From: a virus | DNA: 32,053 nt | Reading direction: 5' to 3' (one strand) | IMG/VR virus record: IMGVR_UViG_3300047462_000727 | Coordinates: 1-32,053 of that record | Shown here: one piece after another, positions 2,258 to 30,832 of the stretch | Position numbering within the stretch: the first letter of the stretch is position 1 | Layout of the letters: every line of letters starts with the position of its first letter | Translations under genes and position numbers: made by a program | The notes under the pieces: model-generated | The model's database searches: none | Seen by the model: only the letters and a program-made list of their open reading frames with translations | What the model was told of the DNA's origin: nothing

Positions 2258-5200
2258 TCACCGCTTGAACTGCTGGATTTGGATGGTGTTGGGGCCGGCG
2301 GCGGCGGTCGCCTGGTGGCTCACGCCGGTCGGCGTCGTGAAAGCGGCGACGTAGGCGTAGAGCACGAGCGTGTAGGTGTGGCTGCCCGCCGCCGGCGTGT
2401 CCTGGACGAAAGTGGCGACGCTGGACGCCGCCGATGGCGTGATGGTCAGCAGCCCGGAATTCGCGCCGTCGCGGTAGAGCAGCAGATACGAGGCGTATTG
2501 ATAGTTGCCCCCCAGCGCCAAGCCGTACTGCACCGAAATATCGATGTTGAGCGTGGTCGATCCATCGGCCGTCACCGTGATCGACGCCAGATTGGCGGTC
2601 GCGGTTTGAGCGGCAGGCACAGACTGCGTGTTTTGGGCTTCGCACGATCCGCCGGAATTGCTGGCCGATGAGCTGGATGTGATGGCGTTGGCGGCGACGT
2701 TGGAGGTCTGGACCACGCCGTTACCGAGCTGGTCCACATTAAATATGGCATTGCCCGAGGCGTCGAAAACCCAAAGCCCGTCCGCGCCGGCCCAATGGCC
2801 GAGCACGGCGCGCGTGACCCCCGACGCGTCGTTATGCGCGAAATACGGCCCGTAGGTCAGGCTTCCGCTCGTAAACAGGCCGCCATACATCACGGCGGTC
2901 GCCCCCGTTCCGCTGCTCGCCGTGTATTGATAGCCCTGGAAGAAATTCGCGGTGATCTTGTCGCCGGTGATCGTCCCGCCGGCGATATTCGCGCCGGTGA
3001 TGGTGAGCGCGGCGATGTTCGACCCGGTGATGGTCGAGCCCGCGATGTTCGTTCCGGTAATGCCGCCGGTCGCGATCTGCGCGGCCTCGATCGTGCCGGC
3101 CTCGATGTTGCTCGCGGTGATCGTCCCGGCCGCGATGTTGCCGCCGGTGATGGTGTTGGCCGCGATGTCGCCGCCGGTGATGGTGTTGGCCGCGATCTGG
3201 TAGGTCGTGATCGTTCCCGCCGCGATTTGCGTGCTGGTGATCGTCCCCGCGACGATGTTCGCGGCGGTGATGGTCGCGGCGGCGATATTCGTGCCCGTGA
3301 TCGTCGCGCCGGCGATTTGCGTTCCGGTGATGGTTCCGGCCAGGATGTTGGCGGCCGTGATCGTGTCGGCCGCGATGTTCGAACCGGTGATGGTCGACGC
3401 GGCGATCTGGGTTCCGGTGATCGTTCCGGCCTCGATATTGGCGGCCTGGATTGTACCGGCGGCGATGTTCGAACCGGTGATCGTGCTGGCCGCGATCTCG
3501 GTCGCGGTGATCGTCCCGGCCAGGATGTTGGCCCCGGTGATGGTGTTGGCGGCGATATTCCCGCCCGTGATCGTGTTGGCCGCGATCTGGTTCGTGGTGA
3601 CCGCGCCGTCCTGGATCAGCGTCGTGCCGACCATGGATTGGAGGTTATATCCGGCGGTGAGCCAGTAACCCGACTCCCCGCCGGTGGGCGTGGAGACGTC
3701 GCACTGGACCCGAAGATAGGCGGCGTTGGCCGCCGTCGTGAACGTAAATTGCGAGATGCCGCCGCCCGTTACGCTGTACGGAGACGGAGCGACGTTCGTA
3801 ACGATTACGCCCGGCTCGGTTAGAACGGTCACGCCGTCCGCCGCATAAATAATAACGCGATTGAAGAGCGGCTGGGTGGGGTTGCCGTAGGCCCATGCCT
3901 GACAACTCAGGCTATAGGCCGTGTTGGGTGAAATCTGAATCAGGGGGCCGAGGAGGAAGATCGTCTGACCGGCCGTCATCGAACCCAGATTAAAGGTGGC
4001 GGCGTTCGTCCCACCCATATCGTTCGAGAGGTAGGTATTGCCCTGGTAGAAGATCGTGGGGGCGCCGTAGAGCGTCCAATAGGACGGATCGTTCAGATAC
4101 GGATCGGTGATCAACGACGCGCCGATCGCGAGCTTGCTGGCCACGATCGCGCCGGCGGCGATGTTGGCGCTTTCCACCGCCCCGGCCTGCAACAGCGCGG
4201 TGGAAATCGAGTTCGGCGCGATCTGGGTCGTGGTGATCTGGCCGGTGAGCTGCGCGGCCGTGAGGCTGGCGATCTGGGCGGCCGTCAATTGCCCTGTGAT
4301 CTGAGTCGCTTCGAGCGAGGCGATTTGGGAGGCGGTTAACTGGCCGGTAATCTGGGTGGCGGCCAACGAGGCGATCTGGGCGGCTGTCAATTGCCCAGTG
4401 ATCTGGGGCGCTTCCAACGAGGCGATCTGGGAGGCCGTGAGCTGCCCGGTGATCTGGGTGGCGGCCAACGAGGCGATTTGTCCGGCTGTCAGTTCGCCCG
4501 TAATGTTGACCGCTGGAAACGACGTGAGGGTCGAGACGGTCGAGACCCAGGCCGAACCGTTCCATTGGTAGAGCAGGTTCGTATCGGCGGCGAAGGCGAA
4601 CAGGCTGGTCGTATGGTTGGCCGCCGAGATCGTGGACACGGACTGAACGACGTTGAGCCCGCTGATCAGGTTCGACGCGGCGATCGAATTGGCCGCGATC
4701 TGCGCGGCGACGATCTGCCCGGTGATGTCGGACGAATCGACGCCATAGGTCGTGGCGGTCGCGGGGCCGGCGAAGGCGGAGAAATTCCCGGATGTGTCCT
4801 GGGCGCGTAGCCAGTACCAGCGTTGGTCGTTGAGGTTCAGCCCCGGCCGCACGTAATGCGTGCCGGTAATGAGGCCGATGCGCGACGCATGCGCCTCATT
4901 GGCATCGCCGCTTTCCCAGATTTCGTACCAGGCGATGTCGTTCTCGGCCGAGGCGACCCAGTCGAGCGTGATCTGGCGGTAGCCCCCGGCGGCCGAGAGG
5001 GATGTCGGGGCCGGCGGCGGCGTTGTCTTGCCGATTGTCGCGACGTTGAGGTCCTGAGCCCAGGTGGAATAGAACGGGCCGGCGCTTCTGACCGCGCGGA
5101 CCTGCACGTCATAGGCGGTGTTGGCGGGAAGCGGGCTGATCTGGAAGCTGGTGGTGTTAGGACCGCAGCGATAGCCGATCCAGGGACCCGGGCCGTCATG

Positions 5201-9840: not shown

Positions 9841-9867
9841 GAAACGCCAAGGCGCCAAGGCGCCAAG
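9841..9867. repeat. GCCAAGGCGCCAAG tandem repeat
   Basis: GAAACGCCAAGGCGCCAAGG continues as three near-identical 9-bp GGCGCCAAG units. It is one arm of the dispersed GAAACGCCAAGGCGC repeat seen again at 13957, 18272 and 22224. It lies in the DUF2460-DUF2163 gap (9779-9875), which has no other feature. Confidence 0.7.
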
Positions 9868-13912: not shown

Positions 13913-14090
13913 TGAAGTTTTTTATCCGCGGATTTCGCGGAAGAAATCCTATGAATGAAACGCCAAGGCGCGGAGACGCCAAGGAAAGCCGATGAATGTT
14001 GCCTACGGCGTTATGATTCCGGGCCGCGCGGCGAAAATCATGTTCAGGCTTGGGGGCTTCGTGTTTTGGCGTTTCCTTCATGAATCCAGG
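13913..14090. repeat. Palindromic repeat in the tail tube-chaperone gap
   Basis: The arm 13952-13990 (TGAATGAAACGCCAAGGCGC...) is inverted imperfectly at 14047-14085. The core at 13957-13990 is identical over 34 bases to 18272-18305. A second small CCGCGGATTTCGCGG-type palindrome lies at its left end (13926-13940). No gene was found in the gap 13900-14103. Confidence 0.75.
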
Positions 14091-18225: not shown

Positions 18226-18490
18226 GGGCGGTCGACGTGGGCCAGACGGCGCGGGTGGTTACGCGCGGATTGAAACGCCAAGGCGCGGAGACGCCAAGGA
18301 AAGCCTGTTGGATGGGACATAGATGCCGCGTGGACGCTCCTGTGACCGACTTCGCGATGGAAATTGCCGTCATTGCGAGGAGCACGGCGACGCGGCAATC
18401 CATAGTTCCGCGCGTGCTGAAGCATGGATTGCCGCGCTTCGCTCGCAATTTATTTGCGTTCTGGCAAATGGAACTCCGCTTATCTATATG
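18226..18490. repeat. Repeat-filled gap: GAAACGCC arm plus GTCATTGCGAGGAGC palindrome
   Basis: Two dispersed repeats fill this gap. The 34-bp GAAACGCCAAGGCGCGGAGA-type arm lies at 18272-18305. An imperfect inverted pair lies at 18371-18414 (CATTGCGAGGAGC...GGCAATCCATAG) and 18423-18449 (CATGGATTGCCGCGC...). The GTCATTGCGAG...GGCAATCCA element is a widespread bacterial intergenic repeat. No gene is supported here. Confidence 0.75.
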
Positions 18491-21704: not shown

Positions 21705-22155
21705 TAGGGATCCCCTGGGCGGTGAAGAAGGAATGAAGCTGAACCCGTCGGCCGCTGACGGTGGCGCAGGTGAAGCCGAGGAGGTAGCGGCCGGCGGCGG
21801 GCTGACTGATCGCCTGGGCCGCGACGTTGCCCAACAGGGCGGGGGCGCCGTCCAGCGCGGCCTGGTAATTCGTGACCGGAGCGTCGACCGGGAAGAACAG
21901 GGTGGCGAGGGTGGCGGGGTTCAGCGCGTCGCCGGAATCGAGCGCGAGCGTGAGATCGATGCCGAAGACGTCATCCGCCGCCGAGGAGAGGGGCGGAAAA
22001 TCCCGCCCGGCATAGCCGGAGGGGAAGATGGGAACGATGGTGCGGGCGGCGTTGAGGGACATGATCGCTCCCGTTGCGGTTGCGCCGAGGCCGTAGGCGA
22101 GGAAGGCGTAGGGGCCGCCGGGACCGAGGCCGAGGGAGATGGGCCAAAACGGCAT
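21694..22155 (-). CDS. Structural accessory protein preceding the portal
   Basis: A 153-residue protein, start at 22155 with GGGAGA upstream (an internal ATG at 22063 is a possible shorter start). The first 40 residues are hydrophobic and Gly/Ala-rich. The rest is a compact beta-type domain: TIVPIFPSGYAGRDFPPLSS, VFGIDLTLALDSGDALNPAT, then AAGRYLLGFTCATVSGRRVQ. This FxxDLT..LxxGD...AT plus YxLxFxxxTxxGRRxxL pattern occurs in small phage virion accessory proteins with an Ig-like fold. It might decorate the head or neck. It overlaps the portal start by 11 bp. Confidence 0.6.
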   Translation of the reverse strand: MPFWPISLGLGPGGPYAFLAYGLGATATGAIMSLNAARTIVPIFPSGYAGRDFPPLSSAADDVFGIDLTLALDSGDALNPATLATLFFPVDAPVTNYQAALDGAPALLGNVAAQAISQPAAGRYLLGFTCATVSGRRVQLHSFFTAQGIPNAA

Positions 22156-22220
22156 GGGCGGGTCTCCCGTTTTGGTTAGCCACGGAATTCACGGATTTAA
22201 GTCTGGCGTTAAATCCTGTG

Positions 22221-22395
22221 GATGAAACGCCAAGGCGCGAAGGCGCCAAGTAAGATTCATCGTCTTGACCGGGCTTGACCCGGTTATCCACGTCATGCGT
22301 CACCGGCGGAAGACATGGATACGCGGGTCAAGCCCGCGCAAGACGAAGGAAATAGTTAATCTTACTTGGCGGCTTCGCGCCTTGGCGTTTCATTC
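22221..22395. repeat. Nested palindromic repeat
   Basis: Outer arms 22221-22257 (GAAACGCCAAGGCGCGAAGG...AAGTAAGATT) and 22358-22395 are near-perfect inverses. Inside them, 22260-22294 (TCGTCTTGACCGGGCTTGAC...) is inverted at 22312-22346. The inner TTGACCCGGxTATCCA element is a common alphaproteobacterial intergenic palindrome. The whole could fold into a hairpin about 175 nt long. It fills the gap between two structural genes (22156-22407), which holds no gene. Confidence 0.85.
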
Positions 22396-22407
22396 ATATT
22401 CGTAATC

Positions 22408-23031
22408 TCACCCCGTGCGGCGGCGCATCGTGGGGGCGGTGGCGCTGTCCATCGTGAAGGTCATCGCGGGGGTTTCGCCGTCGAGCTTGCTCGCGGTGAG
22501 GGTCGTTCCGGATTGGGAGACGTTGGCGAGGATCGCCATCATGCCGTAGAGCAGTTGGGCGAGGGTGGCGGGTTGGCCGTTGGCGGCGTAGCTTTCGGCG
22601 AGCGCGCCCACCAGAACGCCCAGCGCCGCGCCCGGCGTGCCGGCGGCGGTGTGGGCGGACAGCGGATCGTCCAGAATGCCGGCCTTGATCTCGGCCAAAC
22701 TGGGCGCGGCCGCGAGATCGGCGAGGCCGAGGGCGGCCGGATCATAGGGGCTGAAGGCGACCACCTGGCATTTGACGTCGGCCGGATCGGCCCCCGGCGC
22801 CGTGGCGTGGAGCAGCAGAACGCCGTTGGTCGCGACATCCGCGCCCGAGGGGGTGAGCGCATACCACCCATCCCCCGTTTCAGACACCGCGCCCGACGGG
22901 GCCGCGAAGGCGCCGCCATTCTTGCTGATGACGACAGCGGGGGATGCGCCGGTGACCCCGGAGACACGATCCGCCGCCGAGGCGAGGAAGAACATAATCG
23001 GCCGCGCCTCGCCGTTCAGGATAAGCTGCAT
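22408..23031 (-). CDS. Phage structural accessory protein with BppU-like N-terminus
   Basis: A 207-residue protein with GAGG before the ATG at 23031. MQLILNGEARPIMFFLASAADRVSG followed by VTGASPAVVISKNGGAFAAP, SETGDGWYALTPSGADVATN and GVLLLHATAPGADPADVKCQ is the Ig-like TG-x-P-x-V-x-SKNGGAF domain found in many phage tail/head-decoration and baseplate-upper-type proteins. The C-terminal 100 residues are Ala-rich and helical. The first 22 codons and part of the leader are duplicated twice further right, at 24194-24295 and 25296-25397, where they run into early stops. It therefore marks the original junction at which the toxin-antitoxin island was inserted. Confidence 0.65.
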   Translation of the reverse strand: MQLILNGEARPIMFFLASAADRVSGVTGASPAVVISKNGGAFAAPSGAVSETGDGWYALTPSGADVATNGVLLLHATAPGADPADVKCQVVAFSPYDPAALGLADLAAAPSLAEIKAGILDDPLSAHTAAGTPGAALGVLVGALAESYAANGQPATLAQLLYGMMAILANVSQSGTTLTASKLDGETPAMTFTMDSATAPTMRRRTG

Positions 23032-27469: not shown

Positions 27470-27838
27470 ATGCTCACTGTCATCCAGTGGATCGTCACGA
27501 TTTTGGGTTTCACTTGGCTGTGGATCGGGATGCAGGAAATCATCGATCGCCAGGAGCGGCGCGATGCTTTACGGCGGGCATTCATTACGCCCGAGGCGCG
27601 CGAAGCCGATCTTTTCGAGAATGGGACAGCCGGCAGTACTGAGGCCGCTTACAGCCCGCGCGCGACTGCCTTTGACCAACGTTGCGGTGGCGTTTCGATC
27701 CATCTTCGCGTGGCGATGGACACCACAAAGGTGACACCGATCGATCCGACGATGAAAACAATCAACGAGACGAAGGGATCGTCAAACCGCTGGGCCACCG
27801 CGCGCGCCGCGACCAAAATCGGCTCCTGCGTGAGGTAA
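27470..27838 (+). CDS. Possible small membrane protein, partly antisense to the acyltransferase
   Basis: An ORF of 122 residues from MLTVIQWIVTILGFTWLWIG, a clear transmembrane helix, followed by a charged region (EIIDRQERRDALRRAF). The first 60 or so codons lie in the 200-bp gap between two minus-strand genes and look coding. The rest runs antisense through the end of the acyltransferase and does not. A real small membrane gene may have been cut or extended when the acyltransferase arrived. The ribosome binding site is weak, so the call is tentative. Confidence 0.3.
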   Translation: MLTVIQWIVTILGFTWLWIGMQEIIDRQERRDALRRAFITPEAREADLFENGTAGSTEAAYSPRATAFDQRCGGVSIHLRVAMDTTKVTPIDPTMKTINETKGSSNRWATARAATKIGSCVR

Positions 27839-28668
27839 ATCGAAAAGGACATGTTCCCCAGCCACAGCAGCGGCCTTGCGCTGAGAGTGCGTCGCGCCGG
27901 ACCTTCCAGCGCCGCGCAAACGGGGATCGTCAGTGCCAGTATCGCAACGATGATCAGGTCGGAACCGCGGAATGCTTGCAAGACCACGATCGCGACGATC
28001 GCAATCAAAAGACATAAGGGCGGCCGCCACGTCGCCCAAGCGCGCCATCGGTATAGCAGCATGCCGATCGCGAATTCGGCCGCGCAGCGCATAAACGGTC
28101 GGCAGGAATTCGCACGCGCGATATCCATGTTATCGTCATGCGCAAACCATAGCCAAGCACAGGTCGCTGCCGCGATAGCGAGCACGCATAGCGCCACTGA
28201 CGCCCTCGGCCTTAGTGTCAGCGCGACAAAGACGGGAAAGGCCAGATTGGTCAGCCACTCGGTGCTGATCGACCAAGCCGGTCCATCGATTGATCGCGAA
28301 TAATCCCCAACGAAAGGCCAGTGGTGAACCAGCATCATCTCCACCAGGATTTGACCCGGCGGGTAGCGCACGCCCACAAACACGGCGCACAGCACCGTCG
28401 CGCCGACCATCGTCACGTTGAGCGGAAACAGCCGCGCCGCGCGGATGAATACGAATTGCAGCCAGGGTTTCCAGGCGAAGCCAAGGCTTCCATACCGCGC
28501 CGCGAGAATGAAGCCGCTGAGCATGAAGAAGAAATCGACGCCTAGATAGCCTCGGCTGAACGCAGGCCACGGGCGCGTTCCGCCGGGAGCCCATGCGTCG
28601 AGGTGATAGGCAAGCACCCACAGCGCCGCCATACCGCGCATCGATGTCAGCGCTTTGATTTCCCTCAT
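27649..28668 (-). CDS. Acyltransferase-3 family O-acetyltransferase
   Basis: A 339-residue integral membrane protein with about ten hydrophobic helices. MREIKALTSMRGMAALWVLA then YHLD carries the conserved Arg11 and His22 of the family; YLGVDFFFMLSGFIL and the GNMSFSIYLTQEPIL block near the end are also typical. Acyltransferase-3 enzymes O-acetylate surface polysaccharides such as O-antigen. In temperate phages they change the lysogen surface and so block superinfection. Base composition is less G/C-biased than the structural genes. It is followed, after 200 bp, by the SGNH esterase. There is no strong ribosome binding site; an ATG at 28668 or 28641 could serve. Confidence 0.88.
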   Translation of the reverse strand: MREIKALTSMRGMAALWVLAYHLDAWAPGGTRPWPAFSRGYLGVDFFFMLSGFILAARYGSLGFAWKPWLQFVFIRAARLFPLNVTMVGATVLCAVFVGVRYPPGQILVEMMLVHHWPFVGDYSRSIDGPAWSISTEWLTNLAFPVFVALTLRPRASVALCVLAIAAATCAWLWFAHDDNMDIARANSCRPFMRCAAEFAIGMLLYRWRAWATWRPPLCLLIAIVAIVVLQAFRGSDLIIVAILALTIPVCAALEGPARRTLSARPLLWLGNMSFSIYLTQEPILVAARAVAQRFDDPFVSLIVFIVGSIGVTFVVSIATRRWIETPPQRWSKAVARGL

Positions 28669-30486: not shown

Positions 30487-30616
30487 TGCGGTCAAGCATC
30501 CTTGATGACGGTTCGTTTACGCTATTTTAACATCACCCCGTGCGTCGGCATAGCGCATTCGCGCGGTCATCGAAGCGAGGCGATAGTTTCGGGACGGGTC
30601 CTTTTGGAGACGGTTT

Positions 30617-30821
30617 TAGCCACAGATTGCACAGATTTAGGCGGATTAAATCCCTTGAAGTTCACCACCAAGGCACGAAGACACGAAGGAAAGCCAAATC
30701 CGTCGCCTGCGGCGCTTAAAGCGCGCGCAGCGAATATTGCTTTCTCTTACTTGGCGTCTTTGTGTCTTGGTGGTGAAATTTCATTTTCATAAATCTGCGT
30801 TAATCCATGTCATCCGTGGCT
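30617..30821. repeat. Nested palindromic repeat between terminase and the next gene
   Basis: Outer arms 30617-30648 (AGCCACAGATTGCACAGATT type) and 30791-30821. Inner arms 30661-30695 (TTCACCACCAAGGCACGAAG...) and 30739-30777 are inverted, giving a potential hairpin of about 205 nt. Small ORFs crossing it are repeat shadows. The rest of the gap 30487-30832 shows no gene. Confidence 0.8.
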
Positions 30822-30832
30822 AAGCAAACCTC

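Follow-up and report, generated by a model that had tools for sequence, protein, structure and literature searches.

The window analysed here is a virus record of 32,053 bases in which a phage-like cluster encodes portal, terminase, baseplate and tail proteins. Between two minus-strand reading frames it contains an intergenic palindrome at 22221-22395 that encloses a second palindrome, and the question raised by this locus is how one hairpin comes to lie inside another. The original prediction allowed either for insertion of one repeat in the loop of another or for a compound mobile element, and proposed a family of non-autonomous palindromic elements that target palindrome loops. Our preferred reading, to which we give a probability of about 0.6, is that the nest is made of two independent palindromic elements. 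The outer one would be MITE-like and gene-less, related to a mobile unit that carries a GxxExxY gene, and the inner one is a head-to-head dimer of CGTC-tagged REPs.

Anatomy of the nest

The nested palindrome is real: both arm pairs were recovered, and the region folds far better than shuffled sequence. The outer inverted repeat joins 22219-22257 (plus strand) to 22358-22396 (minus strand), with arms of 39 nt each that are 95% complementary and spaced 100 nt apart, and the inner one joins 22260-22299 to 22307-22346 (40 nt, 83%), with 2 bases on one side and about 11 on the other separating outer from inner layer. The folding energy of 22215-22400 is -82.2 kcal/mol, against -28.7 (sd 3.1) in 200 dinucleotide shuffles, none of which equalled it (z -17.0).

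Both layers are short bacterial hairpin repeats, but of kinds unrelated to each other. The outer layer consists of inverted arrays of CRCNRAK heptamers, three per arm and about 8 bases apart, within the 8-11 nt by which we define an array (two or more such heptamers); the left arm carries CGCCAAG, CGCGAAG and CGCCAAG at 22228-22250, and the right arm has its minus-strand array at 22365-22387. The inner layer (22261-22345) is formed by one REP at 22261-22290 on the plus strand, with the tag CGTC, a stem, the loop CTTGA and the tail CCA, and a second at 22316-22345 on the minus strand, the other half of the head-to-head dimer. In the parts available to us, the paper of Di Nocera, De Gregorio and Rocco (2013, PMC3733652) describes CGTC-tagged REPs as having an unpaired CGTC tag, a stem of 8-9 bp, a loop of 4-5 and a CCA tail, and as commonest in alphaproteobacteria, mostly head-to-head dimers and without an associated transposase. 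The inner layer matches this in tag, loop, tail and dimer arrangement; the exception is the first of its nine stem positions, where T stands opposite T in both halves, so that eight are paired. A GTAG REP or REPIN with RAYT was also considered as the class of the nest and was rejected, the tag being CGTC rather than GTAG and the heptamer arms showing no link to Y1 transposases.

A REP dimer inside a palindrome is not new as such, because the same paper, in the parts available, places the REP dimers of A. variabilis and H. neapolitanus within palindromes. As described there, however, those enclosing palindromes are not found without REPs, whereas the heptamer hairpins here also occur alone, and the outer arms here, unlike that description of CGTC REPs, are heptamer arrays tied to GxxExxY genes. 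A compact CACGGATT-type hairpin with a shortened right arm, read from the sequence at about 22177-22223, adjoins the nest and does not enclose it. Rfam gave no match at its gathering threshold.

The window as a whole holds 12 heptamer arrays, where a first-order Markov model gives 2.75 on average (sd 1.6) and at most 8 in 200 draws. At 30617-30823, CACAGATT-type arms (array at 30621-30636) surround CACCAAG/CACGAAG-type arms (30666-30688 and 30750-30772), which in turn surround an unrelated GC-rich core; the folding energy of 30612-30826 is -53.2 (z -7.65), with no shuffle as good. This element, placed at 30617-30821, had been described in the original prediction as repeating the nested plan with a different inner sequence, and the plan is indeed common to both, but with three layers rather than two. 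A further heptamer hairpin at 13951-14081 (array at 13961-13983) has a degenerate right arm and a different interior, a CGCGGAG-type one at 1202-1281 has no nested element, and two solitary plus-strand arrays, CGCCAAG at 9845-9867 and CGCCAAG/CGCGGAG at 18276-18298, have no partner arm. The phage-like cluster also carries tandem direct repeats of 30 and 51 bases (2904-3663 and 4218-4523, the 51-base set within or beside a large tail-protein frame) and, at 27649-28668 on the minus strand, an acyltransferase gene (PF01757), an unusual cargo.

Variation and independence of the layers

A portal-protein search gave 80 virus-record loci, 31 of which (L026-L056, 75-87% protein identity) were taken as relatives of the window; among 17 genome loci the best identity to the window's portal protein was 50%, and ten array-rich genomes gave no match. 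The interval matching 22010-22440 was extracted in 24 of the 31 relatives, near-copies such as L037/L038, L043/L044 and L048-L050 included, and its contents were judged by eye. In L027 the site is occupied by a pair of three-layer nests, in L028-L030 and L052 by compact CAGAT-type hairpins, in L037/L038 by a heptamer hairpin alone, and in L036 by a CGTC dimer adjoining a 28-base TTGGAGAC..GTCTCCAA palindrome that is also present in several other relatives; little or nothing comparable is seen in L040, L045, L048-L051 and L056. The hairpin contents of the site thus vary among the 24 relatives, and therefore copies with and without the inner layer exist, rather than every copy having the same two layers.

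Toxin-antitoxin-like genes are present at the site in L035, L043/L044 and L047 and a nucleotidyltransferase-like gene in L033 and L042, these names being impressions formed without a family search; such small genes have entered the same intergenic site that carries hairpins in other relatives. The 28-base palindrome TTGGAGACAGATTGCAATTTGTCTCCAA recurs there in L028, L030, L033, L035, L036, L039, L042 and L047, beside different genes or elements. In L027 (8956-9513) the site itself is duplicated, with about 36-45 flank bases nearly identical between the copies and strongly different nested hairpins enclosed.

Across the window and its 31 relatives we counted 13 head-to-head CGTC dimers (including those of the near-copies L029/L030 and L037/L038), and only the window's own has at least two heptamers on each side. 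The nesting is reversed in genome G217, where at L206 a CGTC dimer surrounds a heptamer hairpin, and at L192 and L193 a REP-like palindrome lies inside one arm. The two layers are thus independent, and a single fixed compound element is contradicted by the 12 unenclosed dimers. The proposed targeting of palindrome loops finds no support in those same 12 dimers or in the REP-like palindromes inside an arm. As for the proposed family, separate families that look non-autonomous do exist, but the elements of the nest are not one family because its two layers are unrelated in kind.

Beyond the phage relatives, 150 of 385 alphaproteobacterial genomes contain matches to the pattern CRCSAAGRCRCSAAG, in most cases just a few; the counts reach 68 in G387, 43 in G164 and 40 in G104, against 1, 3 and 2 for the reversed control. 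In genome regions that we fetched, arms of the types CACCAAG, CACGAAG, CACAGAG, CGCGGAG and CCACGACACCACGG nest in one another, with four layers at L143. A strict nesting order CAGATT > CSAAG > CAGAG was ruled out by CAGAG-type arms around CGAAG-type ones in L166, L168 and L173. The CAGAT type is outermost in every two-type nest seen in the phage relatives and the window (4 plus the one at 30.6 kb), too few to conclude from. Divergent compact heptamer pairs, with arms outward and a short loop, stand beside the usual convergent ones in L148, L149, L151, L159, L052 and L054.

Heptamer arms and GxxExxY genes

The first sign of a link to a gene was locus L194, where heptamer arms surround a small gene. 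Six of ten genomes picked as array-rich have a match to the PF13366 (PDDEXK_3) family; for the class sample the figure is 25 of 385. With a cut-off of at least 10 array matches, set after the counts had been seen, it is present in 6/9 array-rich genomes (two of the nine sharing a genus) and in 19/376 others (Fisher p 3e-6); G217, G343 and G245 gave no match, some of these array-rich genomes being draft assemblies. Three of the PF13366 proteins match NCBIfam TIGR04256, GxxExxY. In an alignment of 20 sequences D62 and E72 are invariant and K74 nearly so, a pattern as would be expected for a PD-(D/E)XK site. A search of PDB sequences gave no meaningful match, and a structure prediction for the L277 protein from its single sequence (mean pLDDT 40.5) was too low for use.

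With gene positions assumed, the enclosing inverted repeat exceeds the 99th percentile of 930 mismatched pairs in 11 of 31 GxxExxY loci. For the best-scoring 30 Bacteroidota loci the corresponding 99th percentile was 126 and none of the 30 own scores lay above it; this null failed because arms are alike between loci, and oriented heptamer counts in 200-base flanks were therefore used instead, with gene positions set by profile (L269 and L270 shifted; L272-L274 dropped for want of a profile match). In the alphaproteobacterial flanks (28 of the 31 loci) the heptamer means are 2.71 and 2.61 in the inverted orientation, compared with 0.64 and 0.68 in the opposite one and 0.63 in control windows (Wilcoxon p 1.7e-4). 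The Bacteroidota flanks, from the 30 best-scoring loci and not a random draw, give 3.30 and 3.00 against 0.43 and 1.13, with a control of 0.39 (p 2.4e-6). At least two inverted heptamers on both sides are present at 17/28 alphaproteobacterial loci and at 26/30 of these Bacteroidota loci, the opposite orientation giving 2 and 1; both-sided arms are wanting in the other 11 of the 28. Gene and arms lie close together, the distance on either side being at most a few tens of bases.

The class of the arms (..GAT or ..AG) follows the protein tree, with 4 changes against about 10 in shuffles and none of 500 shuffles as low, on a tree in which 52 of 62 rows were scored (10 had a short protein or too few heptamers) and support is low at many inner branches. 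One clade of six proteins from both phyla has ..GAT arms throughout. A scan of virus records with the GxxExxY alignment yielded one locus, L277, a gene with heptamer arms between phage genes; a scan of the same records with the L262 protein yielded no GxxExxY locus.

Units that lack the gene are also found. At L344, in a genome other than the window's, the units come in two alternating kinds, one gene-less (186 and 167 bases) and one with a GxxExxY gene (498 and 495 bases). The two kinds have in common their first 10 bases and 52 of the last 58 (52 being a hand count from the alignment); ends shared between a short gene-less unit and a gene-bearing one are one mark of a MITE. Sites with and without the gene can be compared. 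Of two Bacteroidales genera, one has the operon junction at radA filled and the other does not. In Bacteroides finegoldii a GxxExxY gene with its arms sits after radA, immediately past the stop codon, and in Parabacteroides distasonis the unfilled junction measures 13 bases. Phocaeicola massiliensis has a different gene there. Sphingomonas parapaucimobilis has a GxxExxY gene between fabD and fabG, a position at which 14 genomes of the Sphingomonas-type genus of G009 have none (0/14). Judged by eye, that junction (L312-L325) holds CGTC-type dimers of differing sequence in ten of the 14, is nearly bare in two (L315, L323) and contains another palindrome in two (L324, L325), a turnover at one site within one genus. 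Although filled and unfilled sites were found, edges are not resolvable at such divergence and no target duplication was read: no exact junction came from G164 against G031, from the phage relatives of L277 or from fabD-fabG in the 14 Sphingomonas-type genomes, and the loci from G402 and G407 gave no mutual alignment.

Origin of the nest and its meaning

The symmetrical fit of the layers in the window might suggest one fixed compound element that moves with both, a reading that is scarcely credible given the 12 of 13 CGTC dimers without outer arms, the heptamer hairpins with other interiors and the reversed layers of L206. Movement of the outer layer by a RAYT/Y1 transposase of the IS200/IS605 type, on the model of GTAG REPs, is also very unlikely. 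That association is known for GTAG REPs and some long inverted repeats, according to the parts of PMC3733652 available to us, but five of ten array-rich genomes have no PF01797 match, and in none of eight Y1 loci do heptamers occur on both sides (eight of nine loci, L222 at a contig edge being left out; gene positions assumed; threshold two heptamers per side). Template switching at quasi-palindromes, copying arm to arm, with slippage multiplying heptamers, could make hairpins grow in place without any transposition. Such growth would account for the agreement of arm types within one element (in the phage relatives 11 of 20 pairs agree, where shuffling gives 4.7, with a maximum of 11 of 2000) and for the unequal heptamer numbers of the two arms in L152 and L155; we consider it improbable, because arms of one type are found again and again within a genome, at many sites that have nothing to do with each other, as well as around a single gene family, because units with and without the gene have both ends in common, and because in G387 the agreement is not above shuffles (14 of 21 pairs; mean 10.7, maximum 16). 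Growth in place may well operate as an additional process.

GxxExxY might instead be a passenger or a regulated gene, with some other activity making the heptamer hairpins, which would insulate or regulate the gene between them. The toxin-antitoxin-like and nucleotidyltransferase-like genes at the palindrome-rich site in relatives of the window, the different gene at radA in Phocaeicola and the array-rich genomes without PF13366 all fit this. The explanation nevertheless seems on the unlikely side, since arm class tracks the protein tree across two phyla and the close placement of arms on both sides would be needless for a random passenger.

We therefore prefer the reading of two independent elements. 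For it stand the inverted arms around GxxExxY genes in two phyla, the link of arm type to protein subfamily and the gene-less units with common ends. The full unit would be a GxxExxY (PD-(D/E)XK-type) nuclease gene between inverted CRCNRAK arrays; we infer that the nuclease recognises the heptamers and so mobilises heptamer hairpins in trans. It might do this by making a cut close to an extruded hairpin, after which repair would copy the element in. The CGTC dimer would have come into the outer hairpin later. Nests would survive because a copy in the loop of another element breaks no gene and leaves both palindromes whole. The arms of the outer layer would place it in this proposed class of GxxExxY-linked heptamer hairpins, for which the gene was seen in other genomes.

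Modular hairpin repeats interleaved in one intergenic site, as here, are also a feature of neisserial intergenic mosaics and pneumococcal BOX elements; their repeats differ from the heptamer and CGTC repeats, and we know of no link between them and a nuclease gene. REPINs and GTAG REPs with their RAYT transposases are alike in being short intergenic palindromes of many copies, thought to be moved in trans (PMC3733652, as far as available), but the window elements differ in having no GTAG tag, no link to a Y1 transposase and arms of iterated heptamers. TIRYT elements, in which long inverted repeats bracket a RAYT gene, resemble the present units more closely in that a small gene lies between inverted repeats that also occur without it; in the available parts of the same paper, however, their gene is an HUH tyrosine transposase, and here it is of a PD-(D/E)XK-type family. 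The open literature, as far as its text was available, scarcely mentions GxxExxY or PF13366/PDDEXK_3, a passage on GxxExxY being incidental; searches with literal repeat strings returned nothing related, and those for palindromes within palindromes, for mosaic or dispersed repeats and for elements with heptamers or nucleases returned no account of the link, PMC3733652 on REPs apart. The link between heptamers and GxxExxY may be known elsewhere, because subscription journals and database notes lie outside that scope. A REP dimer in a palindrome is already known; the novelty, should it stand, would lie in what the outer layer is and in its connection with GxxExxY genes.

More broadly, and as a tentative proposal that we would put at somewhat below even odds, GxxExxY proteins may act as the mobilisers for an extensive and still unnamed class of bacterial mobile elements, each subfamily recognising its own heptamer array, and array-built palindromes including the window's may be non-autonomous copies that accumulate, nested in one another, at intergenic sites where they do no harm. 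Such a class would be large, since 150 of 296 sampled Bacteroidota genomes have a GxxExxY gene. Several repeat classes that look unrelated by sequence would be joined through a single arm design and a single gene family. CGTC REPs and many bacterial palindromic repeats are without a known mobiliser, and the outer layer of this nest points to a testable candidate enzyme family.
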